Both the position numbers and the translations under genes were made by a program. Shown in pieces: positions 1,310 through 55,262 of a stretch of DNA of 64,000 nucleotides (position 1 is the stretch's first letter; each line of letters opens with the position of its first letter). The DNA comes from Thermoplasmatales archaeon SW_10_69_26 (lineage in GTDB: Archaea > Thermoplasmatota > SW-10-69-26). The stretch is taken from positions 85,854 to 149,853 of the forward strand of contig PXUB01000001.1 in the NCBI GenBank assembly GCA_003009755.1, read 5' to 3'. The notes beneath the pieces were generated by a model. That model ran no database searches and was not told the DNA's origin. It saw nothing but the letters and a program-made list of their open reading frames with translations.

Positions 1310-1498
1310 GTGGACCTCCCCGACCTCGTCTCCGACCTCAGCAGCGACGAGGAGGCGGGCAGGGCTGCCGCCTGGAAGGAGGAACGATTCGACGAGATCG
1401 TCGCGGAGAACCTCGAGATCGCGGCAGCGGTCCCTGATCCGTCCCCCTCTCCCGCGGATCACGCACGGCTCGTGCCGCATCAGACCCAGCCGTCCTAA
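1310..1498 (+). CDS. Small acidic hypothetical protein (62 aa)
   Basis: GTG-start ORF with acidic composition; runs into the repeat array. Confidence 0.3.
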   Translation: MDLPDLVSDLSSDEEAGRAAAWKEERFDEIVAENLEIAAAVPDPSPSPADHARLVPHQTQPS

Positions 1499-1666
1499 TC
1501 CGGGAGAGGGGACAGCTGACGCTATTCCCCTGTCAGGATCTTGGATCAGTCCCCTCTCCCAGGGATCACGGACGACCGTGCTGCGGTGTCTGCGGTCGTC
1601 CTAATCCGGGAGAGGGGACAGCTGACGCTACTCCCCTGTCAGGATCTTGGATCAGTCCCCTCTCCC
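1437..1666. repeat. Palindromic tandem array, ~106-bp period (1492-1560 vs 1598-1666 plus a degenerate upstream copy), built from the tRNA-Tyr 3' end
   Basis: GTCCTAATCCGGGAGAGGGGACAGCTGACGCT(A)..TCAGTCCCCTCTCCC occurs twice 106 bp apart; each copy contains the stem GGGAGAGGGGAC/GTCCCCTCTCCC matching the tRNA-Tyr T-arm/acceptor. Confidence 0.8.
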
Positions 1667-1770
1667 GGATTCGAACCGGGGACATCCTGCTCTCTGCAGC
1701 GCCTGTCGGGTGCTCACCCGAGAGTGTTCTTCTACAGGCAGGCGCTCCGGCCAGTCTGAGCTAAGAGGGG
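1656..1770 (-). tRNA. tRNA-Tyr(GTA) with ~40-nt intron in the anticodon loop
   Basis: Reverse complement CCCCTCT..TAGCTC..GAGC..CCTGC CTGTAG [intron] A GCAGG..CCCGG TTCGAAT CCGGG AGAGGGG A; canonical 37/38 intron position. Confidence 0.85.
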
Positions 1771-21752: not shown

Positions 21753-21871
21753 CCTCGGGATGCAGAGGTCCGAGGCATCGATGCAGAACGAGGACCTCTG
21801 CCAACGACGGGAACACGAGGCCTGCAGATACCGTGGAAAGAGGCCGAGTGGTCCCGTCGGGACTTAGACCC
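21753..21871. repeat. Dispersed ~105-bp repeat copy 1, ending in tRNA-Glu 3'-like core TGGTCCCGTCGGGA (21849-21862)
   Basis: GCAGAGGTCCGAGGCATCGATGCAGAACGAGGACCTCTGC..AGATACCGTGGAAAGAGGCCGAGTGGTCCCGTCGGGA shared with copies at 28.3 and 28.6 kb. Confidence 0.9.
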
Positions 21872-28286: not shown

Positions 28287-28405
28287 TGGTCCCGTCGGGA
28301 CGCAGAGATCCGAGGCATCGATGCAGAACGAGGACCTCTGCCGACGACGGGAGCACGAGGCCTGCAGATACCGTGGAAAGAGGCCGAGTGGTCCCCTCGG
28401 GATTC
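28287..28405. repeat. Dispersed ~105-bp repeat copy 2, bracketed by tRNA-Glu 3'-like cores (28287-28300 and 28389-28405)
   Basis: TGGTCCCGTCGGGA..CCGAGGCATCGATGCAGAACGAGGACCTCTGC..TGGTCCCCTCGGGATTC. Confidence 0.9.
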
Positions 28406-28613
28406 TCGTACGAACCTCGCTTCGCTCGGTTCGGACGGCTCGCAAGCCCTTCCCGCTTGCTCGTAACCTGTGGTTCAAATCCCTCGGTCCCACTTCCTCT
28501 GGATGGTGGGCGAGAAGCCGCCCGTCGGGATCTCAAGACGTGGCGGAGACCGGGCACGTCTTGAGAGACGACGGGACCACGAGCGAACGTGGCCACAGGA
28601 GAAGGTGAGCGAG

Positions 28614-28728
28614 TGGTCCCGTCGGGATGCAGAGGGCCGAGACGACGATGCAGAACGAGGACCTCTGCAAACGACGGAGACCCGAGGCCTGGAGATACCG
28701 GAGAAAGAGGCCGAGTGGTCCCGTCGGG
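28614..28728. repeat. Dispersed ~105-bp repeat copy 3, bracketed by tRNA-Glu 3'-like cores (28614-28628 and 28716-28728); candidate att end of the integrated element
   Basis: TGGTCCCGTCGGGAT..GATGCAGAACGAGGACCTCTGC..TGGTCCCGTCGGG. Confidence 0.88.
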
Positions 28729-35883: not shown

Positions 35884-37100
35884 ATGTCCGCTGAGAAGCC
35901 ATCCGCCCCAGGCTCGAAAGGGTTTCCCCCTGGATCACTCGCCGTCTCCCCCTCACGGAACGGGGAAAGCTCCAACTCACCGTCTCCTCCTGCGGCCCGT
36001 GGAGGTGAACGCCCAACACCACACACGGGCACACCGATGGCCGAACCCTGGCAAAACGAACACAACGCCAGGGTCCAAGCGATACTTGAGCGAAGCAACA
36101 CGGCAGAGTTCGATCCGACCCGAGAGGGCTGGAAGCAATGGATGAAGGAGGACCGTGGACTGGCGACGAAGACCCGGGCCAGCTACATTCGGAGCCTCGA
36201 CCGACTCGAACGGAACGGAGTCCTGACGGATGGCTCGGTCGGGGATTTCGTCTTGACCGCCCGGGAGCACTTCTTCCACCGCCGAGACGTGGAGGAGCGC
36301 CAGCGACCACTTTGAAGAACGACCTGAAGGCGATCAAGTGCTATGGCGATTATCTCGGCGTCCCCCGGAAACTTTGGCCGAAACAGCCCACGGTCAAGCA
36401 GAAGACCACCAAGCTACCCAGCCCCGAAGCCGTCCGCCACCTCCTGACCGACAACTACCGGGAGGACTCGACCCGCAACGAGCTCGTTCTGACTGTCATG
36501 CGGGTCATGTTCGGGCTAGGACTCAGACCCAAGGAGGCCTACGAACTCCGGCTCCAACACTTCTACCCGGAGGACCACCTCCTCCGAGTCCCGAGCGTAA
36601 AGAACTCGGCGGACGGAACAGAACCGCTCATCATCGAACCGGAATGGCTCTGCTGTGGAACCACCCGGCCCAGCCTGCTGAACTGGGTCGAGCACCACCG
36701 ACCGAAGCTCGACCCTACGACGGACGCCATGTTCCCGCACTTCGAAGGCGGGGACTGGCCCTCCGCCGAGGCCTTCTGGCAATACATCAAGCGCCCGGTG
36801 AAGAAGGTCTACCCGGGCTACTGGAACCGCCTCGGCCGCAAGTGGTCCGTCAACGCTCGCCTGATCGAGAGCAAGCAAGGCAGCCGGTACGACTGGAGGG
36901 GCGTGGCCAAGTTTCATCGACACACTACCGACACGTCAGTTCGGAACTACGAGCAGTCGGTGGAACTCCACGAGAAGCTGTACGGCGACAACTGGATCAC
37001 ACGCGCCTTCCAGAAGCTCCCGGGCGAGGAAACCGAGCCTCGCTGGGGGGTTTTGGACCCGTCCTCTTCTGGGGAGTACGATGGTCCCGTCGGGATTTGA
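35884..37100 (+). pseudogene. Tyrosine recombinase/integrase, split by a -1 frameshift near 36300 (N-terminal frame 35884..36315; C-terminal frame 36138..37100)
   Basis: N-part: DRGLATKTRASYIRSLDRLERNG; C-part: MFGLGLRPKEAYELRLQHF, VKNSADG, FHRHTTDTSVRNYEQ; 3' end overlaps tRNA-Glu. Confidence 0.75.
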
Positions 37101-37156
37101 ACCCGAGTGGTCGCCTCGAGAGGGCGAAATGATTGGCCGGACTACACCACGGGACC
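37082..37156 (-). tRNA. tRNA-Glu(CTC)
   Basis: Reverse complement GGTCCCG TGGTGTAGTCCGGCCAATCA TTCGCC CTCTCGA GGCGA..CTCGGG TTCAAAT CCCGA CGGGACC A. Confidence 0.92.
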
Positions 37157-37335
37157 GTTCCGGCTTGCGCCGTGAGCCCAGCAACCCCATCAGCATCAAA
37201 AAGGTTGCGGGCGGCGCTTGCGACGCCTTGTCGCATCCGCCTTCCCCCTCGATCCACGCTCTCGGCTGGAGCCGCTGCTCTTCGCGTTCTTCCTGCACGA
37301 AACCTTGACCAAGCCCCACGTAGTGACCCCGCCGC

Positions 37336-37844
37336 CGCTTACGTGCGGGCTGCGGGGGTAGCCTAGCCAGGTCATTCGAACGGATCGGAGATCCGTCCTC
37401 TCCCGGGATCCGCGCGAGTCGCCGTCGGTTCCCGGGATTCGCACGGACCTCGCACCGTCGTCGGTTCGTACTCGCCCGAGAAGGCAAGCTTCTCGGGCAT
37501 CCGTACGGCCAAGGCCGTACTCGCTCGGAACCGAAACACGGTTCCTCGCGGAAACCTTGACCTGGAGGCGACCTCCATCGGCACAAGTCTGCGGAGGTAG
37601 CCTAGCCAGGTCATTCGTACGAACCGTTCATCCCTGCCGGTTCGTACTCGCCCGAGAAGGCAAGCTTCTCGGACAGGAAACCTTGACCTGGCAGGCTCCC
37701 TCATTGCCACGAGGTCTGCGGAGGTAGCCTAGCCAGGTCATTCGCACGAACCGCGCGATCGCTACCGGTTCGTACTCGCCCGAGAAGACGAGCTTCTCGG
37801 GCAGGAAACCTTGACCTGGAAGCTACCTCCATCCCACGGTATCC
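37336..37844. repeat. Tandem array of three inverted-repeat units, each starting with the tRNA-Ser 5' half and ending with its reverse complement
   Basis: GCGG(A/G)GGTAGCCTAGCCAGGTCATTCG at ~37346, ~37595, ~37714; each followed by CGGTTCGTACTCGCCCGAGAAG..CTTCTCGG and AAACCTTGACCTGG..GAC/TACCTCC. Confidence 0.88.
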
Positions 37845-37928
37845 GCGGAGGTAGCCTAGCCAGGTCAAGGCGCCGGTCTTGAAAACCGGTGGGCCTAGCC
37901 CACGGGAGTTCAAATCTCCCCCTCCGCG
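37845..37928 (+). tRNA. tRNA-Ser(TGA)
   Basis: GCGGAGGTAGCCTAGCCAGGTCAAGGCG CCGGT CTTGAAA ACCGG TGGGCCTAGCCCA CGGGAG TTCAAAT CTCCCCCTCCGC G. Confidence 0.93.
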
Positions 37929-37932
37929 CTTC

Positions 37933-38138
37933 TCCAGGGCAAGGCGCCGGTCCCGCAGGACGCCCGTCAGGGCGTCCGAGGTGCGGACGAACCGACGATT
38001 GGAGGGTTCGTCCAGCATTGAAAACCGGTGGGCTTAGCCCACGGGAGTTCGAATTCCGGGACCGAGCCTGCCGGCGCCTCGGCCCCGCAAGAGCACGGAT
38101 CTGTGATCCGTGCGAATCTCCCCCTCCGCGCTTCTCTT
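37933..38138 (+). repeat. Interrupted partial copy of tRNA-Ser, with hairpin-rich inserts in the anticodon loop and T loop and no 5' acceptor
   Basis: CCAGGGCAAGGCGCCGGT [~60-nt insert] TTGAAAACCGGTGGGCTTAGCCCACGGGAGTTCGAATT [~60-nt insert] GAATCTCCCCCTCCGCG. Confidence 0.8.
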
Positions 38139-40124: not shown

Positions 40125-40282
40125 CTCCACGGCCGGACGTGATCGGGGGACCCTCTCGTCGCCCTCGGGAGGGGAAACCGCGGAGCCCAGAGGATGGCCC
40201 ATCCCGTGTCGGCCGCTGAGATCTCGCCGGTTCGGACGATCTCAGGCACGCCCGACTCTCTGCTTCGGGCAGTGTCCGTCGA

Positions 40283-40387
40283 CAACCCTCGAGGGTTGCC
40301 TTGCTCGGCCTCCGCGAGCCTGACACGCTGCCTCGCAGGAGCCCGCCGGGGCTCGCAGGCTCGGGAGACCGTACCTTGTCTCCCGAG
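40283..40387. repeat. Intergenic palindrome and hairpin cluster
   Basis: CAACCCTCGAGGGTTG (40283-40298, perfect palindrome) and CTCGGGAGAC cgtacctt GTCTCCCGAG (40360-40387). Confidence 0.6.
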
Positions 40388-40424
40388 ACCGGCGCGAGCG
40401 GTTCGGCAACCCCCGTCCGGCAGG

Positions 40425-41579: not shown

Positions 41580-41876
41580 GGGCGTCGATGAACGCGGTCC
41601 CCTTATCAACGTAGCGGGAGGGCGGAGAGCGGCTGTCTCGTTAAGCAGGGGCCGCGAAGGACACGAAGGATCGCCGAGGCCACGAAGGGCCTGTGACTCG
41701 CCGCCGGGCGGCGTTGTCACGGCAGCTGCTCCCCGTTGTGCCCTGGCGTCCCCTCGCGTACTTGGTGGTCCCCCCGTTTCTTATCCTTGCAGCGCGGGGC
41801 GGAGAGCAGGGGATGGCGGGGAGCCCTCACACAGAGGCACGGAGGCACAGAGGATGCGGAGAGTCGGAGGGCACGC

Positions 41877-45518: not shown

Positions 45519-48500
45519 TCAGGCTTCGGGTTCGGCGAGCGAGAGGACGAGGTCGCCGATCGTGGTCCAGCGGGCCTGGAAGCCGCCCTCGGGGGAGTGG
45601 ATGCAGGCGCTGTCGCCGGCGAGGTGGGTGACCTCGTAGGCCTGGGCCGGTTCCTCGAGCCCGGTGCCCAGGGCCTTGGCGGCGGCCTCCTTGAGCGTCC
45701 AGGCCAGCGTCTCACCGAGGGTGGTCTCGATCTCGGCGTCGGCCAGCATCGCCCGCTCGTCGCTGGTCAGGCTGTCCTCGCGCCAGGCGTCCGAGCGGTC
45801 CTCGATGCGTTCGAGGTCGATCCCGATCGGGCTCCCCTGGCGGGCGGCGGCAATCGCCAGGCCGTGGCCGTGCGTGATGGACACGCTGCCCTCGGCACCG
45901 TCGACGACCGGGCGCCCGTCGTCGCGGTCGAGGCTCGCGTCGTCGCCGAAGGCCTCCTGCAGGGTACGCTCGGCGGCGTGCGTGCCGGCCTCGCGTTCGG
46001 CCTCGCGCTTGCCGCGCGGGTCGCGGGGGTCGAGCACGTCGACGGGCTGGCCGCTGAGCGCGACGCCGTCCGGGGCGAAGCTCACCAGCTCGCCGGTGAC
46101 CTGCTGGTTGGCGTCGGTGCGTTGCAGGCGGAGGCCGCGCACGTGGACGATGGGCTCCTCGCCGTCTCGGACGGTGGCGTCCCAGGTGGAGCCGGTGGCG
46201 TCGGCGGCGACGAGGCGCGCGTCGACGCGCACCTGGCCCTGCCTGGGCGCCGCCTCGAAGCTCAGGGTCTTGATGCCGACGGGCAGCTGGCGGCTCTCGC
46301 GGGTGAGGCCGGCGGCCTGCATGGCGGCCTCGATGGCGAGCGCGTGCGGGGAGGCGCCGCCCACGGTCAGGTCGGCTTGGGCCCTGACGTGGTCCTCGCC
46401 GGGCCGGGCCCGCGTGAGGACCTGGAAGCTGGGCCCGTGGAACAGGCGCTCGTAGATCGCCTCGGCCGCGATCGGGTCGGTCTCGGGGTCGGCGCGGTCG
46501 ACGGGCTTGACACCGGGCCCGGGGCCGGCTCGGGCGCGGGCGTGCACGGTGTCGTTCTGGGTCACCTGCCAGGCCTCTCCGGTTGCCTCGACCCTGAGCG
46601 TGGTCGGCTCCGTGATCCAGGCGGGCTGGGTGAAGCCGACCTCGTGGAGGGCCTCGACGGGGCTCGCGTCCGGTGCGGTCGCCTGGCGGAGGGCTTGCAG
46701 GTAGCGGACGCCGGGTACGAGCGGGCGGCCGGCGACCTGGTGGTCGTCGAGGAAGGCTTCCTCGCCGGTGAGGTGGAGCTCGTCGGTCCCGGTGTGCGGG
46801 GTCCGGGGCTGCTGGTCGGCGACGAGGAAGGTGCCGGGCTGGGCGAAGGCGTCGGTGAAGACCTCGGCGCCTCGCTCGGGGGCGAGGAAGGTGACCTCGC
46901 GGTCCTCGAGCACGGCGCGCACGGTGTCGTCGTCGGCCATGCCGCCGGCGGCGTCCCAGGCGGTCCAGTGGATGAGGGTCCCGTCGACCGGGGCCAGCAG
47001 ACCGGGCAGGCAGCCGTTGGCGAGCGCGTAGTCGGCTTGGCCGGGGTTGCCGTAGGCGCCGGCGATCGAGCCGAAGGCGACGTGGTGGGCCTCGGGCAGC
47101 TCGTCGGTGAGCTTGTGCACGGGCGTGAGCTTGGTGTCGAGCACGAGCTGCATCTCGTCGCGGGTCTTGTCGGCGAAGCCGCGCGAGCGGTCCACGCCGA
47201 CGCCGTGCACGACGAGATCGATCGCGCCCCAGTCGTCCTCGACGGTGGCGACGACCTCGGCCAGCGCGTCACCGTCGGTCGCGTCGGCGCGGTGGTAGCT
47301 GGTCTCGGCGACGGCGGCCAGGGCCTGGTAGGCGTGGGCGCGGCGGGCCTTGCGGACCTCGCGTTGGACCCGTTCTTCGATCTCGGCGGGTGTGGGGTCC
47401 TCGCCGGTCCTCTGGGCCTCGGCGAGCATCTGCTCGCGCAGGTCCTGGATCTCGTCCTCGTCGTCGGGGTCCAGCTCGGGATCCACGAGGGGGCTGCGGC
47501 CGACGAGGGCCAGGCGGACCTCGTGGCGGTCGGCCAGCTCGGCCAGGCAGGGTTGCACGGCGGCGCCGAGGCCGCCGGGGGCGAGCACGGTGATCGGTTC
47601 CGCGAGGTCGAGCTCGGCCTCGGGGTCGGTGGGGGCCGGGGCCGGGCGTTGGCGCAGCGAGCCGTCGAGACGGACGTCCGTGGTCGTGTCGGCGAGGATC
47701 TCGGCGACGAGGGTCTCGTCGGTGACGTCCTCGCCGACGATCACGGCGCGGGCGTCGATCTCCTCGGCGCGCAGCGTGCCGGCCAGCGCCGGGAGGCCCC
47801 GGGCGGAGGCGTCCTCGCCGGCTGCGACGAGCACGGTGCGGGCCTCCTCGGGGACGTCTTGGAGGTGGACGAGGAGATCGGTGAGCGCCTCGGGGTCGGC
47901 CTCGGCGGTCACCGAGACGACGTGCAGGGGCGCGTCGGGGCCGTCGCTGGCGTCCCCCAGGCGGGCCTGCGTGGCCTCGGGCAGCGGGCCCTCGATCGTG
48001 ACCTGGTCGGGCTGGAGGGATCCCTCAGGGGGCTGGGCGGGTCGCCAGCGCCAGGCGGTGCGCTGGATCGCGTCGGCCTCGTGGTGGGTGTCGGCGGAGC
48101 CGTTCTCGGAGGCGGTGTCGGCGTCGCTTGCGGGGGTGCCGGCGTGCTCGGCGAGCAGGCGGGCGGCGTCGTCGACGGTCGGCACGTCAGCCAGACTCAT
48201 GCCCTCGATCGGCGGGATGCCCAGCTCCTCGCGCGCCTCGGCGAGCACCTCGGCCTGCTTGACCGTGTCCACGCCCAGATCGGCCTCGAGATCCATGCCC
48301 GGATCGATCACGTCCTCGGGGTAACCGGTCTTGCGTGAGACGAGGTCGACGAGCAGTGCCTCGACCTCGCTCACGTCGGGGCCGTCGGTCTCGGTCGGCT
48401 GGGTCCCGCTGGAGCCGTTGGTGCTGGCGGGCTCGGCCGCGGCTTCGTCGGCGTCGATGTCGGCCTCGCTGCTTCCGTTGGTCGTGGCACCGTCGGCGCC

Positions 48501-51500
48501 GTCGACGTGCTCGGCGAACAGCTGGGCCGCGTCGTCGACGGTCGGCACGTCGGCCAGGCTCATGCCCTCGATCGGCGGGATGCCCAGCTCCTCGCGCGCC
48601 TCGGCGAGCACCTCGGCCTGCTTGACCGTGTCCACGCCCAGATCAGCCTCGAGATCCATGCCCGGATCGATCACGTCCTCGGGGTAACCGGTCTTGCGTG
48701 AGACGAGGTCGACGAGCAACGCGCGGACCTGGGCGGGATCGACGCCGTCGGTGTTGGCGGTCGAGCCGTCCTGAGCGGTGGCCGATCCGCCCTCGGCGGT
48801 GGGCTCGGGGCTGCGGTCGGGCAGGGGCTGGCTGGTGGAGCCCTTGCCAGGCTGGCGGGCGGCGGCCGGGCGCGCCTCGGCTTCGCGGGTCTGGGTCTGG
48901 GTCGTCTGCGTCTCCCGATCGGGGTCGACGGCGCGCAGCAGGCGGTCCTGGCGGGTGACGGTGGCGTCCCCGACCGCACGGGATAGCCAGTCCTCGAAGG
49001 TGGCCTGGTCGATCTGGCCGGGCGCCTCGGCGATGCGTTCGAAGCAGGCCATGGCGACCTGGCTGCCGAAGCCGGCGGCGAAGCGCAGCGAGCGCGAGCG
49101 GTCGGTCGGGCCGCCCTCGCTGAAGGTGAACGTCTCGAAGGCGGGGTCGGGTTGCTCGAGGTTGGCGACGGGCGGGGCCTGGCGGCGGCGCAGCAGGTCG
49201 ACGGCGATGCCGTCCTCGAGCCCGGCGCCCATGGCGTGGCCTGTGAGGCCCTTCGTGTTGGTGACGAGCACGTCCTCGGCGTCGTCGCCGAGCGCGGCTT
49301 GCAGGGCGTCGATCTCGGCTTCGGCGGACCCGCCGCGGGGCGGGGTGGCGGGTTCGTGGCTGACGAAGACGAGGTCCTCGGCCAGCTCGCTGCGCGACAG
49401 GTCGGCGTCCTGGCGGACCTGGTCGAGGAAGGCCTCGACCTCGGCGCTGACGTGGTCGGGATCCAGGCGGGCGCCGTGGAAGGCGCTGTTGGCGACGCTG
49501 GTCTCGGCGATCTCGGCCAGCGGGGTGAGGCCGCGCTCGGTGGCGGCCTCGTGGGTCTCGACGACGAGCCCGACGGCGCCGGAGCCGACGAGCATGCCGT
49601 TGCGACGCCGGTCGAAGGGCAAGGCGGCCTCGTCGACGGTGTCGGCGGTGCTGGCGGCGCCGGCGGCCATGAAGCCGCTGCCGATCCAGGGCAAAAGCTT
49701 CTCGTTGCCGGCGACGTCGGCGCCGAGCACGATCACGCGCTCGCAGCGACCCTGCTCGATCCAGTCCTGGGCGAGGGCGAGCGCGCTCGTGGTGCTGGCG
49801 CAGGCGGCGTTGACGTGCAGGTTGGGGCCTCGGGCGTCGACGAGCTGGGCGACCTGGGCGTGTCCCATGCCGAGCACGCGGAACAGGAAATCGCGCGGGA
49901 ACTCGTCGGTGCTGGCGTGGGCGGGCTCGGGCTCGGCTCGATCGGTGTCGAGGTGGGTCTGGGCGGCCCAGTCCATCAGCTCGGCGCGGCCCTCGGCGTC
50001 CAGGTGGTCGCCCAGACGGTCGATGGCGTCGACGAGCGTGTCGGGGTCGGCGCCGGCGGGTGTCGGGCTGGGGGCCTGGGTGTCGACGATGTCGAGCAGG
50101 TTGTCGTAGCCGGGGAAGGCGCTGGCGAGGACGACGCCGGTCTCGGCCTGCAGGGGTTCCGGCAGCGACCAGCCCTCCTGCAGCGTCGTGCCGGTGCTGG
50201 TCTCGTGCTCGTCGGGGACCAGCGGGATCGAGGCGTCACTGAGGGCCTCGAGCGCGGCGGCGACGGCCAGGCGGGCGGTCCGGTCGGCGTCCTCGAGCCA
50301 GTCCTCGTCGACGCCGTAGGCCGACAGGTCGACGTCGGCGATGCGGCCGGCGAGCGAGACGACGTCCTCGGGGTCGTCGACGGCCTCGAAGCTGGGGCCG
50401 CCGTCGCCGTTCTTGTCGAGGCGTTGGACGCCCATGTCGGCCATCGTGCGCCGCTCGCCGTCGGGGACCTCGCTGAGGAGGTTCTCGCCCTCGAGCAGCG
50501 CCTGGCGGGCGGCCGGGTCGAAGGGATCCTCGACGCCGGGCACGCCGAGGCTGACGCCGGAGACGACGGTGCGCGGCGTCTGGACCTGCCGGGGCTCGGC
50601 GGGGCGAGCTTGCGCCGGGGTCGGCCGGGGGTCTGGCGTGAGCTGCGTGCTCGGCTGCGGCTCGTCGGCCTCGGCGGTGGGAGGGTCGGCGAGGCCGGCG
50701 GCGGTGAGGGCCAGCCGGGCTCGCGAGAACGAGGCGAGCTCGCCGGTGCGCTCGTGCATGGTGGGCACGGCGGGGATGTGGTCGGCGTTGGCTTGCGCCA
50801 GGCCGGAGAGCACGCGACCGGGGCCCGTCTCGACGATCATGTCGAGGTTCGCGTCGTCGAAGGCCTCCATCGTCTCGACCCACTCGACGGCGCTGGCGAC
50901 CTGCTCGGCGAGCAGGTCCCGGATCGCGTCGGGGTCCTCCGGGTAGGGGTCGCCGGTGGCGTTGGCGATCACGGTCGTCTCGGGCGGGTCGACCGGGATC
51001 CGCTCGAGCACCTCGCGCAGGGGGGCCTGCGCGGGTTCGACGATCGGGCTGTGGAAGGCCGCGGAGACCTGCAGTTGGCTGTTGCGGACGTCAGACTCGT
51101 CGGCGCGCTCGGCCAGGGTCTCGAGCGCGGGCGTGGTGCCGGCGACGACGGTCTGCTCGGGACCGTTGACGTTGGCGGGCCAGGCGTCGAGGTCCTGGAT
51201 GAGATCGAGCGCGCCAGCGCGGTCGGTCTCGAGCGCGACGAGGCCGCCGGGATCGTCGACCTCGACGTCGGCCATCTCCCGGCCGCGCGCGCTGACGGCG
51301 TGCAGGGCGTCCTCGAAGCTGAGCGTGCCAGCCGCCACGAGCGCGGCGTACTCGCCCAGGGAGTGCCCGGCGACGATGTCGGGGTCGACGCCCAGCTCCT
51401 CGAGGACGCGCAGCATGGCGACGTCGGCGGCGAGCACGGCGGGTTGGCAGACCTCGGTCGGGGTCAGCGCCTGGATGCCGTCCTCGCCTTCCTTGGCGAG

Positions 51501-54500
51501 CAGCTCGGTCAGGGGTCGGCCCAGCAGCGGCGTGAGGACCTGGTCGGCTTCCTCGAGCACCTCGCGGGCGGCGGGGAAGTGCTCGGCCAGCTGCAGAGCC
51601 ATCTGCGGGTACTGGCTGCCTTGGCCGGGGAACACGAGGCCGAGCTTGCCCTCGGTGTCGGTCAGGTCGCCGACGGCGACGCCTTGCACCAGCGCCAGCT
51701 GGGGCGGCAGCTCGCCGGTGATGGCTTGCTCGATCGTGTCCTGGTCGACGTCGGGCGTGTGCGCGACGCGGACGGGGTCCTCGGGATCGAAGCGGCGGGC
51801 CTGGGGCGGCTTGGCGATCTCCTCACGCAGCGCCTGGCGGTCGGGGGCGCTGGCGAGGCGGGGCTCGGTCGGGTCCTCGGGGTCCTCGCCGCGGGCTTGG
51901 GGCGGGGCGGAGAGGACGACGTGGCTGTTCGTCCCGCCGAAGCCGAAGGCGGAGACACCAGCCAGGCGCTCGTCGTCGCTCCAATCGGTCGGCTCGGTCA
52001 CCAGGGACAGCGGGGTGTCGTCCCAGGCGACCTCGCTGGTGGGGTCGTCGACGACGGTCGGGGGCAGCGTGGCCTCGTCGATGGCCTTGGCGGCCTTGAT
52101 CAGGCCGGCGGCGCCGGCGGCGGCCTTGAGGTGGCCGATGTTGGCCTTGATCGAGCCGAGCCCGATCTCGCCGGGGTCCTCGTCCAGCACGGCCTCGAGC
52201 GTCTGGACCTCGGTCGGGTCGCCGACCGGGGTGCCGGTGCCGTGGGCTTCGACGAGCGTGAGGTCCTCGGGGTCGACGTCGGCGTCGTCGAAGGCGTTCT
52301 CGAGCGCGCGGCGTTGCCCGCTGGGGTTGGGCGCGGTGATGCCCTTGCCTTTGCCGTCGCTGCTGGAGCCGACGCCGCGGATGCAGGCGTAGACGTGGTC
52401 GCCGTCCTCGATGGCGTCCTCGAGACGTTTGAGGACGAGGCAGCCGGCGCCTTCACCCATCACGAAGCCGCTGGCGCGCTCGTCGAAGGGGAACGAGCCC
52501 TCGGGCGAGAGCGCGCCGATGGCGGAGAACTTGGCGAACGTGCCGGGATCCATCGAACGGTCGACGCCGCCGGTGAGGGCCACGTCGACGCGGTCCTCGT
52601 GCAGGAGGGTGACGGCGTCCTCGAGCGCGGCCAGCGAGCTGGCACACGCCGCATCCACGGTGCGGGCGGGGCCGCCGATGTCGTAGACGCTGCAGACGCG
52701 CGAGGCGACGATGTTGGCCAGCTCGCCGGGCATCGTGTCCTCGTTGATCTCGGGGAGGTCGTCCTGGGCCTGTTCGAGCGTGGCGAGCACGTCCTCGTCG
52801 GCGTCGTCGTCGGCGATGGCTTGCTTGGCCTCCTCCAGCGCCAGGCGGCGGCTGGTCCACATGCGTTGCTCGCCGCCCATCGCGTTGCCGAGGATGACGG
52901 CCCAGTCGTTGCGGTTCTCGTCCTCGAGCAGGCCGGCGTCGGCGAGGGCGTCGCCGGCGGCGTGCACGGCCCACTTCTGGCTGTCGTCCATCTGGTCGGC
53001 GACGTTGGGCGGGATGCGGTGCTCGATCGGGTCGAAGTCGACGTCGTCCTCGTCGACGAACCCGCCGAGCACGGTGTAGGTCTCGCCGCTGACGTCGCGG
53101 GTGTCGGCGAGGTGGGTCTGGGGATCGATCGGCCAGCGGTCCTCGGGGATCTCGTCCACGGCAACACGGCCCTCGAGCACGTTGTCCCACAGCTGGTCGG
53201 GGTCGCCGGCGTCGGGCATGATGCAGCCGAGGCCGACGATCGCGATCGCGTCCTCGGGCACCTCGTCGTAGCCGCCGATCGCGGGGGGTTGGGCCAGGCG
53301 TTCGTCGAGGGCCTGGGCCGCCTGGGCGGCGTCGTCGGTGACGCGGCGGTGCAGGTCCTCGATCGTGTAGGTGTCCTCGATGAGCTCGGCGCCTTGCCCC
53401 ATGAGGTAGTTGCCCTCCTGGAGCTGTTCGTCGCTGGACACCTCGTCGTAGGTTCCGTCGTCTTGTCGGGTGACGCCTTGGGCGGCCAGGCGCGTGGCGC
53501 CGAGGTTCTCGTCCTCGACGCGTTCCTTGCGTTCGTCGAGGTCGACGCCTTCGTTGACGAGCTCTTGCTCGAGCTCTTGGACGCGGTCGGTGAACGGGGT
53601 TGGGGCCGAGCGGGCGCGGATGCCGACGGTCTCGCCGGTGACCTCGGTCTCCCTGGAGGCGAGGACGAGGCGCTGGTACTCGGGCGTGGTGGCGCCGGTC
53701 GCGACGATCTCCTCGGTCGCGAGGTAGGCGGTGCCCATGAGCACGCCCACGCGGGCTTCGTCGACGCCGGCGGCCAGCGTGCCGGCCATCGCGGCGGTCT
53801 CGTCGTCGCTGATGCCGCCGGCCAGCAGGACCTTGACGTCCTCGCCGACGCTGGCAACCTCTTGCAGGGCGACGTCCCAGAGCACGAGGCTCGGCAGCTT
53901 GCCGATGTGGCCGCCGCACTCGTTGCCTTCCACGACGACGTGGTCGAGCCCGGCTTCGATCGCCGAGCGCACGAGCCCGCGGGAGGGCGTGTGCAGGTAG
54001 GTGTCGACGCCGGCGTCCTCGAGCTCGCGGGCTTGTTCGACGGTGCCGGCCGCGATGAGGGCCTTGTCGGGCTGCTCCTCGCGGATCAGGCGTTGGTGGG
54101 CGTCGCGCTTGTCCTCGTTGAGGTCGAGCCCGATGATGCCGCAGCCGAAGGCCTGGTCCTCGTCGAGGGTGTCCAGCGTGCCGTCCATGAGGTCCTCGGC
54201 CCACTCGGGGCGGAGGGAGGCGAAGGCGAGGAACGGCAGCCCGCCGGCGTCGGCGACGGCCTTGGCGAAGGCGGGTTCCTCGCTGACGTTGGCCATGGCG
54301 CCTTGGACGACCGGGAGGTCGGTGCCGTGGGCCTGGGCCAGGGGCGATCCCTCGGTGAGGGGGAACTTGTCGGCTTGCTCACGCACGCGGGTCTCGAGGT
54401 GGTCGAGCGCGGCCTCGAGCGTGCCCATCTCGGCGAAGAAGCCGGCGTGGGCGGCGTCGGCGCCGAGCGCGTGGATCGCGTCGTGGGGGTCCTCGGTCCA

Positions 54501-55262
54501 GTGCCCGCGCTCCTCGTCGAGCAGGGCGCGGAGGTGGGCGCGGCGCGTGGCGGGGCCGAGTTCGCTGGAGTTGCCTTGCTCGTCCTCCCAGGCGTCGTGG
54601 ACGTGTTCGTCGGCGGGGCGGGCCAGCGCGTAGAAGGGCTCGTCGAGCGTGGAGCCGAGCGCGCGGACGTCGCCGCCGTCGAAGGCGCCCAGAGCGCGGG
54701 TCCAGGCGTCCGACAAGCCGGCCTCGGGGAGCCCGTACAGCTGGGCGTCGAGGACGACCATGTCGGCGTGGACGAGCAGGGCGCCGGTCGCGCTGGGGCC
54801 GGCGCCGCCCCAGGCGATCGTCGGCAGGTCGAACTCGTCGAGCGCCGGCAACAGCACCAGGCTGGAGGTGTCGCTGGCGCGGCCGGGGCCTTCGCCGCCG
54901 CGGGCGACGAGCGCGTCGGCGCCGGCGTCGCGGGCGCGGCGGGCCTCTTGCACGTCGCGGACCTCGACGGCGGCGGGGACGCCGGCGGCCTGCCAGGCGT
55001 CGACGGCTTGCCGCAGCTGGGGGAGGCTTCCCGCGTCGATCTGCCAGGTGGCGATCACGGCGATACCGGCCTCGGGGATCGGATCGTCCTCGGGGCGGAC
55101 GCGCACGAGCGTCCGGCTGGGGTCGATCTCGGCCAGGCGGTCGTCGGCATACGGGCGGGTGCGGTCGACGAGCGCCCAGGCGCCGGCGACTTGCGCGGCT
55201 TCGGCGAGCTGGGAATCCGGGACCTGGGGGTCGGCGACGACGAGTCGCTCTCGTGCGTGCAT
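45519..55262 (-). CDS. Multidomain PUFA-synthase/type I FAS-like megasynthase: FMN enoyl reductase-like (NPD family)-KS-AT-KS-like-ACP-ACP-KR-DH-PPTase
   Basis: EGNECGGHIGKLP (NPD/ER); DAACASS, HGTGTPVGDPTE, NIGHLKAAAG (KS); GHSLGEYAAL (AT); NAACAST, NTKGLTGHAMGAG (KS2); two EADLGVDTVKQAEVL (ACP); VLAPGGLGAAV..SIAGAYGNPGQADYALAN (KR); FLDDHQVAGRPLVPG (DH); SITHGHGLAIAAARQG..GIDLE..WTLKEAAAKALG (PPTase). Confidence 0.92.
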   Translation of the reverse strand: MHARERLVVADPQVPDSQLAEAAQVAGAWALVDRTRPYADDRLAEIDPSRTLVRVRPEDDPIPEAGIAVIATWQIDAGSLPQLRQAVDAWQAAGVPAAVEVRDVQEARRARDAGADALVARGGEGPGRASDTSSLVLLPALDEFDLPTIAWGGAGPSATGALLVHADMVVLDAQLYGLPEAGLSDAWTRALGAFDGGDVRALGSTLDEPFYALARPADEHVHDAWEDEQGNSSELGPATRRAHLRALLDEERGHWTEDPHDAIHALGADAAHAGFFAEMGTLEAALDHLETRVREQADKFPLTEGSPLAQAHGTDLPVVQGAMANVSEEPAFAKAVADAGGLPFLAFASLRPEWAEDLMDGTLDTLDEDQAFGCGIIGLDLNEDKRDAHQRLIREEQPDKALIAAGTVEQARELEDAGVDTYLHTPSRGLVRSAIEAGLDHVVVEGNECGGHIGKLPSLVLWDVALQEVASVGEDVKVLLAGGISDDETAAMAGTLAAGVDEARVGVLMGTAYLATEEIVATGATTPEYQRLVLASRETEVTGETVGIRARSAPTPFTDRVQELEQELVNEGVDLDERKERVEDENLGATRLAAQGVTRQDDGTYDEVSSDEQLQEGNYLMGQGAELIEDTYTIEDLHRRVTDDAAQAAQALDERLAQPPAIGGYDEVPEDAIAIVGLGCIMPDAGDPDQLWDNVLEGRVAVDEIPEDRWPIDPQTHLADTRDVSGETYTVLGGFVDEDDVDFDPIEHRIPPNVADQMDDSQKWAVHAAGDALADAGLLEDENRNDWAVILGNAMGGEQRMWTSRRLALEEAKQAIADDDADEDVLATLEQAQDDLPEINEDTMPGELANIVASRVCSVYDIGGPARTVDAACASSLAALEDAVTLLHEDRVDVALTGGVDRSMDPGTFAKFSAIGALSPEGSFPFDERASGFVMGEGAGCLVLKRLEDAIEDGDHVYACIRGVGSSSDGKGKGITAPNPSGQRRALENAFDDADVDPEDLTLVEAHGTGTPVGDPTEVQTLEAVLDEDPGEIGLGSIKANIGHLKAAAGAAGLIKAAKAIDEATLPPTVVDDPTSEVAWDDTPLSLVTEPTDWSDDERLAGVSAFGFGGTNSHVVLSAPPQARGEDPEDPTEPRLASAPDRQALREEIAKPPQARRFDPEDPVRVAHTPDVDQDTIEQAITGELPPQLALVQGVAVGDLTDTEGKLGLVFPGQGSQYPQMALQLAEHFPAAREVLEEADQVLTPLLGRPLTELLAKEGEDGIQALTPTEVCQPAVLAADVAMLRVLEELGVDPDIVAGHSLGEYAALVAAGTLSFEDALHAVSARGREMADVEVDDPGGLVALETDRAGALDLIQDLDAWPANVNGPEQTVVAGTTPALETLAERADESDVRNSQLQVSAAFHSPIVEPAQAPLREVLERIPVDPPETTVIANATGDPYPEDPDAIRDLLAEQVASAVEWVETMEAFDDANLDMIVETGPGRVLSGLAQANADHIPAVPTMHERTGELASFSRARLALTAAGLADPPTAEADEPQPSTQLTPDPRPTPAQARPAEPRQVQTPRTVVSGVSLGVPGVEDPFDPAARQALLEGENLLSEVPDGERRTMADMGVQRLDKNGDGGPSFEAVDDPEDVVSLAGRIADVDLSAYGVDEDWLEDADRTARLAVAAALEALSDASIPLVPDEHETSTGTTLQEGWSLPEPLQAETGVVLASAFPGYDNLLDIVDTQAPSPTPAGADPDTLVDAIDRLGDHLDAEGRAELMDWAAQTHLDTDRAEPEPAHASTDEFPRDFLFRVLGMGHAQVAQLVDARGPNLHVNAACASTTSALALAQDWIEQGRCERVIVLGADVAGNEKLLPWIGSGFMAAGAASTADTVDEAALPFDRRRNGMLVGSGAVGLVVETHEAATERGLTPLAEIAETSVANSAFHGARLDPDHVSAEVEAFLDQVRQDADLSRSELAEDLVFVSHEPATPPRGGSAEAEIDALQAALGDDAEDVLVTNTKGLTGHAMGAGLEDGIAVDLLRRRQAPPVANLEQPDPAFETFTFSEGGPTDRSRSLRFAAGFGSQVAMACFERIAEAPGQIDQATFEDWLSRAVGDATVTRQDRLLRAVDPDRETQTTQTQTREAEARPAAARQPGKGSTSQPLPDRSPEPTAEGGSATAQDGSTANTDGVDPAQVRALLVDLVSRKTGYPEDVIDPGMDLEADLGVDTVKQAEVLAEAREELGIPPIEGMSLADVPTVDDAAQLFAEHVDGADGATTNGSSEADIDADEAAAEPASTNGSSGTQPTETDGPDVSEVEALLVDLVSRKTGYPEDVIDPGMDLEADLGVDTVKQAEVLAEAREELGIPPIEGMSLADVPTVDDAARLLAEHAGTPASDADTASENGSADTHHEADAIQRTAWRWRPAQPPEGSLQPDQVTIEGPLPEATQARLGDASDGPDAPLHVVSVTAEADPEALTDLLVHLQDVPEEARTVLVAAGEDASARGLPALAGTLRAEEIDARAVIVGEDVTDETLVAEILADTTTDVRLDGSLRQRPAPAPTDPEAELDLAEPITVLAPGGLGAAVQPCLAELADRHEVRLALVGRSPLVDPELDPDDEDEIQDLREQMLAEAQRTGEDPTPAEIEERVQREVRKARRAHAYQALAAVAETSYHRADATDGDALAEVVATVEDDWGAIDLVVHGVGVDRSRGFADKTRDEMQLVLDTKLTPVHKLTDELPEAHHVAFGSIAGAYGNPGQADYALANGCLPGLLAPVDGTLIHWTAWDAAGGMADDDTVRAVLEDREVTFLAPERGAEVFTDAFAQPGTFLVADQQPRTPHTGTDELHLTGEEAFLDDHQVAGRPLVPGVRYLQALRQATAPDASPVEALHEVGFTQPAWITEPTTLRVEATGEAWQVTQNDTVHARARAGPGPGVKPVDRADPETDPIAAEAIYERLFHGPSFQVLTRARPGEDHVRAQADLTVGGASPHALAIEAAMQAAGLTRESRQLPVGIKTLSFEAAPRQGQVRVDARLVAADATGSTWDATVRDGEEPIVHVRGLRLQRTDANQQVTGELVSFAPDGVALSGQPVDVLDPRDPRGKREAEREAGTHAAERTLQEAFGDDASLDRDDGRPVVDGAEGSVSITHGHGLAIAAARQGSPIGIDLERIEDRSDAWREDSLTSDERAMLADAEIETTLGETLAWTLKEAAAKALGTGLEEPAQAYEVTHLAGDSACIHSPEGGFQARWTTIGDLVLSLAEPEA

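Follow-up and report, generated by a model that had tools for sequence, protein, structure and literature searches.

The window analysed here is a 64,000-nucleotide stretch of the Thermoplasmatales archaeon SW_10_69_26 (contig PXUB01000001.1, positions 85,854 to 149,853). It holds an intact tRNA-Ser(TGA) gene (window positions 37845–37929, + strand), the sole gene found with this anticodon, preceded by three tandem units. Each unit consists of a copy of the 5′ end of the gene and, after a set of hairpins, the same tRNA arm in inverted orientation. Units of this kind recur at about half of the examined tRNA genes of the genome. tRNA genes are classic landing sites of mobile DNA, and we propose below that the units belong to a family of mobile elements made of hairpins.

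The first 23 nt of the tRNA-Ser sequence are repeated three times upstream of the gene, beginning at about 37358, 37591, and 37718. Start-to-start spacing along the array is 239, 127, and 127 bp, the last step leading to the gene itself. The order within a unit is as follows: 23 nt of the tRNA 5′ end, TTCG, hairpins, the inverted copy of the arm, and a spacer of 14–15 nt. In unit 1 (37358–37576, − strand), about six hairpins are followed by GGAAACC and the inverted tRNA-Ser 5′ arm; unit 2 (37591–37702, −) and unit 3 (37718–37831, −) have the same architecture but two hairpins. A sequence-only reading of this DNA had described tandem cloverleaf-like units at the locus, and that description stands with corrections. 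Unit 1 is about 218 bp long, not about 190 bp, is more complex than claimed, and starts with GCGGGGGTAGCC, not GCGGAGG. The two conserved hairpins ascribed to every unit are found in units 2 and 3, the only ones in which ACGAACCG..CGGTTCGT is complete; unit 1 has CCCGAGAAG..CTTCTCGGG plus several more. Closure by the reverse complement is borne out in that the inverted arm is present, but the arm is imperfect. When folding was compared with dinucleotide shuffles, the three units gave z values of −6.3, −5.9, and −6.3, and none of 200 shuffles folded as well. Because the folding beats the shuffles and the same architecture is found at many other tRNA genes, the Ser units are not a chance arrangement.

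A promoter-like box, GAAACCTTGACC, lies upstream of unit 1 (37300–37312, +; repeat family D4) and is the outermost copy. The box AAACCTT repeats with each Ser unit, with a matching copy about 39 nt upstream of tRNA-Ser, and the end of unit 3 bears the promoter-like box that is now closest to the gene. AT-rich boxes stand in the corresponding place at other tRNAs of the genome. A regular expression for them matched 11 of 39 tRNA upstream regions, as against 1% of random 80-mers. We infer that the AAACCTT box acts as the promoter.

Partial copies of a tRNA gene's own ends flank 20 of the 38 tRNA genes, with shuffled flanks serving as the control. On the 3′ side, direct copies are found at 17 genes, inverted copies at 17, and both at 14; on the 5′ side, five genes have direct copies. 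Loci with the same pattern include those of tRNA-Arg(TCG), Arg(CCT), Leu, Gln, Val, Pro, Glu, Gly, Met, and Ser(GCT). Homologous units elsewhere, without which the sequence-only reading would have given up its proposal, are thus present at many tRNA loci.

The breakpoints are placed with precision at tRNA loops. Copies of the 3′ end start 2 to 6 nt past the TTC of the T-loop in 14 of the 15 cases measured. Copies of the 5′ end stop in the D loop in three cases, those of Ser, Arg(CCT), and Arg(TCG), within nt 23–25 (23, 24, 25); the Val copy reaches nt 31, in the anticodon loop, and the Leu(TAA) copy nt 51. The broken copies carry one or more hairpins inside a tRNA loop, and one intact gene is left. 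On either side, the order outward from the gene is tRNA arm, spacer, inverted arm, hairpins, and tRNA arm again; the 3′ layout can be written P Q - S - Q′ P′ - P - hairpins - Q, where P|Q is the T-loop. The outer arm is a copy of the adjoining tRNA gene, not a fixed terminal repeat. Archaeal tRNA introns were rejected as an explanation, as the interruptions fall in partial copies, tRNA halves that sit next to an intact gene (the bulge-helix-bulge motif itself was not searched). Mimicry of a tRNA minihelix was dropped as well, given that the part of the acceptor spanned by the outer stem is not constant and that the discriminator base is in some cases paired. At one locus upstream of tRNA-Arg(CCT) (L017, contig C34), a TATA-like box, TTATAT, sits in the loop of a hairpin, and the stem of this hairpin matches the anticodon arm of that very tRNA (GGCACCGGCC / GGCCGGTGCC).

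The elements at T-loops fold as a four-way cloverleaf, which consists of an outer stem, a mini hairpin GAAC..GTTC, hairpin 1, a GA(G) linker, hairpin 2, and (C)GAA. Both sides were altered in 13 of 33 pairs among seven elements aligned by MAFFT alone, and in 20 of 33 pairs among fourteen elements aligned to the model, an alignment biased toward the structure. In the fourteen, 97.6% of cells are paired, none of 500 shuffles matches this, and sliding the partner column abolishes the signal. The compensatory change that the sequence-only reading had put forward as a check on its units is accordingly there. A covariance model, R1, was built solely from T-loop elements at other tRNAs, and it recovers all three Ser units, each in the minus orientation, with modest E-values: 37366–37453 (5e-4), 37604–37693 (1.5e-3), and 37736–37816 (0.012). 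Because R1 derives from T-loop elements, its minus-strand matches at Ser mean that D-loop units mirror T-loop units across the gene. Element orientation follows the tRNA terminus, not transcription. This mirror symmetry argues for a process at the DNA level over a co-transcribed RNA. Downstream of the Ser gene, a partial tRNA-Ser copy (37934–38130, +; repeats D5, D7, and D9) carries two hairpin inserts, one at about 37953–38017 in the anticodon loop and one at about 38055–38112 in the T-loop; R1 matches it weakly (38043–38122, +, E 0.14).

The hairpin module CGGATCNNNGATCCG occurs in 42 copies in the genome, and its reversed control in none. In the 20 distinct contexts read, usually GA or GAGA stands before the module and GAA or GGA(A/T) after it, both beside tRNAs and elsewhere. 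In 450 kb there are 28 pairs of adjacent hairpins, compared with 2 in shuffles. Copies away from the matching tRNA are found as well. Contig C17, for which the tRNA search gave no tRNA, carries a copy of the tRNA-Arg(TCT) element. In the window, an element copy with tRNA-Glu arms (28381–28500, −) lies about 8.6 kb from the nearest tRNA-Glu; its pairwise alignment with the tRNA-Glu(TTC) element of contig C41 shows close similarity, and the same cluster holds an R1 match at 28518–28624 (E 0.19). Two copies (L111:15168 and L114:3841) stand at the ends of protein genes, and in both cases the end of the gene is duplicated. Several CGGATCNNNGATCCG hairpins lie less than 600 bases from the contig end on contigs C1, C4, C6, C19, C20, C29, C30, and C45, and these repeats may break the assembly.

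The pattern is patchy among genomes. In a genome of the same family but another genus, the same test found flanking self-copies at none of 21 tRNAs. G002, from another family of the class, has 23 of 37 tRNAs positive, and four other genomes of the class together have 3 of 32, at least one of which (L210) is merely a neighbouring tRNA. A phylum member outside the class, G012, has 6 of 22, of which four (Ser, Met, Gln, and Arg) survive reading by eye; one tRNA case was kept in G003 after the same reading. The automated matches set aside as false are L210 and L231-Leu, both neighbouring tRNAs, and L212 of G012, on an rRNA contig that looks bacterial. The L212 segment reads 16S, tRNA-Ile, tRNA-Ala, 23S within an otherwise archaeal bin, so that contamination is probable. 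The CGGATCNNNGATCCG module is absent from five class members and occurs three times in G003. R1 had no match in 295 other genomes of the phylum, with only 13 candidates scored per genome; given that limit and the poor scores that R1 likewise gives to the one-hairpin variants of G002 and G012, this null establishes no more than that the two-hairpin form is private to the lineage. Four matches from a pattern scan of viral contigs fell in open coding sequence without a nearby tRNA and were taken as chance.

A second array lies near the start of the window (1445–1692, −), beside an intron-containing tRNA. A triad scan identified there tandem partial copies of another tRNA's 3′ end, with an inverted arm and a hairpin; R1 matches 1562–1692 (−, E 0.002), and the tRNA model matches G000:C1:87509–87623 (−). 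Two dispersed repeats of other kinds were noted in passing. A palindromic repeat of 165–175 bp at 41630–41800, of which about 450 kb holds at least seven copies at 85–98% identity, is probably a family resembling miniature inverted-repeat transposable elements (MITEs) and distinct from the tRNA elements. A second multi-hairpin repeat at 40207–40423, about 150–240 bp long with at least eight copies, ends near CCGGCAGTCTAG. The window also contains a very long open reading frame, of 3247 aa, at 45519–55262 (−).

We favour a mobile element over template switching, structured RNA, and integron-like sites, in that order, and consider it an even call whether the units are indeed a family of non-coding, multi-hairpin mobile DNA elements of about 60–230 bp that insert in tRNA gene loops with duplication of the gene end. 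Under this proposal, one copy of the gene would be broken by insertion into its T, anticodon, or D loop. The duplicate would regenerate the disrupted end, such that an intact tRNA gene always stays and the broken fragment is displaced outward. Tandem arrays would then arise through repeated insertion or unequal exchange. In the element itself, two hairpins would be joined by a GA/GAG linker and followed by (C)GAA, and the inverted copy of the neighbouring tRNA end would frame this module, so that a single strand could fold into a cloverleaf. The elements presumably move as DNA, with the folded strand as the active form and an enzyme of the tyrosine-recombinase type, or a replication template switch, as the agent. 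They are probably selfish, without host function. Of the three options raised by the sequence-only reading (a structured RNA, a MITE-like element, or a by-product of recombination), the MITE-like one comes nearest, as this is a dispersed non-coding multi-hairpin family; it misses that the outer arm is copied from the local tRNA and that the inserts sit at tRNA loops.

For the mobile element speak the self-copies at 20 of 38 tRNAs versus 0 of 21 in the relative, the precise breakpoints in loops that archaeal tyrosine recombinases cut or are proposed to cut, the covariation, the orientation set by the tRNA terminus, the 42-copy module, and the copies off the matching tRNA. Several points weigh on the other side. 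The hairpins lie inside the loop and interrupt it, and the product of an ordinary integrase keeps the loop junction unbroken, so plain attP × attB recombination fails to explain the units. Integrases would not be expected to leave an inverted tRNA arm either, the elements have no enzyme linked to them, and no polymorphic empty or filled site was seen. Some off-tRNA copies might be remnants of lost tRNA genes or passengers of an ordinary integrative element. A bolder form of the proposal, which we hold only tentatively, is a self-adapting, tRNA-templated hairpin transposon or integron-like site. That is, a gene-free folded strand would borrow its outer stem from the target tRNA, and the target would thereby join the recombination structure.

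The strongest competitor, possible though rather doubtful, needs no mobile element: replication forks stalled at tRNA genes would switch template in the tRNA dyads, yield forward-inverted-forward copies, and capture hairpins from elsewhere. That geometry, with its short turns (the spacer and GAACnnnGTTC), is what repeated switching is expected to leave, and copies stand at protein gene ends too. The enzyme searches are also in its favour. The Y1 (HUH) transposase profile PF01797 has no match in this genome, which is 95% complete, and has matches in five of 14 controls; the reverse transcriptase profile RVT_1 and Cas1 (PF01867) have none in this genome (G000) or in G002. On these zero profile matches, a reverse transcriptase, a Y1 transposase, and Cas1 or a casposase were set aside as movers. 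However, a single two-hairpin module with conserved linkers is found at many loci, the breakpoints are too precise, and the nearest relative has no such copies in 21 tRNAs.

A structured RNA is unlikely. In this account, the cloverleafs would be co-transcribed with the tRNA and either be processed to stable RNAs or act in tRNA maturation. The compensatory change is strong, the hairpin loops hold tandem G·A motifs, and G·U outnumbers A·C by 13 to 4 cells. Yet compensatory pairing is expected of DNA hairpins as well as of functional RNA, and G·T over A·C fits single-stranded DNA too; the ratio is too weak to choose between RNA and DNA. Furthermore, relative to the tRNA, 5′ units and 3′ units occupy opposite strands, with the gene at the centre of the mirror symmetry, and the 5′ units of Ser, Arg(CCT), and Arg(TCG) repeat sequence from upstream of the gene. 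tRNA is the only Rfam family matched in the window, and the distribution between genomes is patchy.

An open reading frame that resembles an integrase (36138–37100, +; PF00589, E 7e-4) lies upstream of the Ser array, and its end runs into tRNA-Glu(CTC) (37082–37156, −). The core of the tRNA-Glu end, GGTCCC(G/C)TCGGG, is found at 21850, 28288, 28390, 28615, 28717, and 37083, which suggests that the interval from about 21.8 to 37.1 kb holds one or two integrative elements. The element copy at 28381–28500 stands amid these attachment-site-like repeats and may have been carried by such an integrative element. The units might be folded, attC-like recombination sites of tRNA-targeting integrative elements, piled up as empty cassettes, and the imperfect outer stem around a variable branched end, the reading frame abutting tRNA-Glu(CTC), and the six repeats with an element copy in their cluster would suit this; but the frame scores below the Pfam cut-off and only weakly resembles IntI4 (E 0.84), the arrays read hold no cassette genes, and outer stems that differ for each tRNA would demand very relaxed specificity of a single integrase, all of which makes the idea improbable.

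We know of no mover for hairpin-only mobile repeats, and how gene-free hairpin elements move has been a question since the mitochondrial double-hairpin elements. Hairpins in tRNA loops and a reverse-copied tRNA end join two themes in one genome. If the elements are mobile, they offer a natural, dense set of insertions from which such movement can be learned. They also explain where some of the tRNA fragments that cause confusion in annotation come from.

No description of this arrangement was found in the open-access literature, subscription papers not being covered, and the known systems resemble it in part. The 178-bp repeats of E. coli tyrT (rtT RNA) are tandem after a tRNA gene and each carries the tRNA 3′ end, but they occupy one locus and lack hairpins nested in loops. 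REP/BIME sequences, which depend on RAYT Y1 transposases, are likewise small palindromes in many copies and clusters; here, in contrast, the genome has no Y1_Tnp, the elements are tied to tRNA genes, and their stems covary rather than keep one sequence. The attC sites of integrons share the arrays and the imperfect outer stem around a variable folded end, whereas here there are no cassette genes and the stem sequence is that of the resident tRNA.

Tyrosine recombinases of archaea have known or proposed cut sites in the D, anticodon, and T loops, and regeneration of the tRNA is their hallmark (PMC8371274; PMC4383910), with rare cases involving the 5′ half (PMC8371274). Integrative elements of the SSV and pTN3 types are thus alike in the tRNA sub-sites, the intact gene regenerated, the displaced fragment, and the occurrence of both 5′-half and 3′-half cases. 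They differ in that they carry genes, are kilobases long, and have an uninterrupted att core; the units here, at about 100–230 bp, are filled by hairpins and encode no integrase, and the hairpins lie inside the loop with an inverted arm. Further tRNA-integrating elements near this case have been described (PMC9897764). In Caldiarchaeum, tRNA-Thr is split by a 1.8-kb insertion and its 5′ fragment was scattered by a mobile element (PMC3293823), although that element carries genes and affects a single tRNA. Also close in kind are the double-hairpin elements of Allomyces and the repetitive hairpin-forming elements of sponge mitochondria, which are short, non-coding, dispersed, and lineage-specific, have one or two hairpins, and are inferred to be mobile with no known enzyme (PMC2800124). 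Those traits are shared here by a family with 42 copies of one module, set apart by its place on an archaeal chromosome, in the tRNA loops of partial copies, and by its inverted copy of the local tRNA end.
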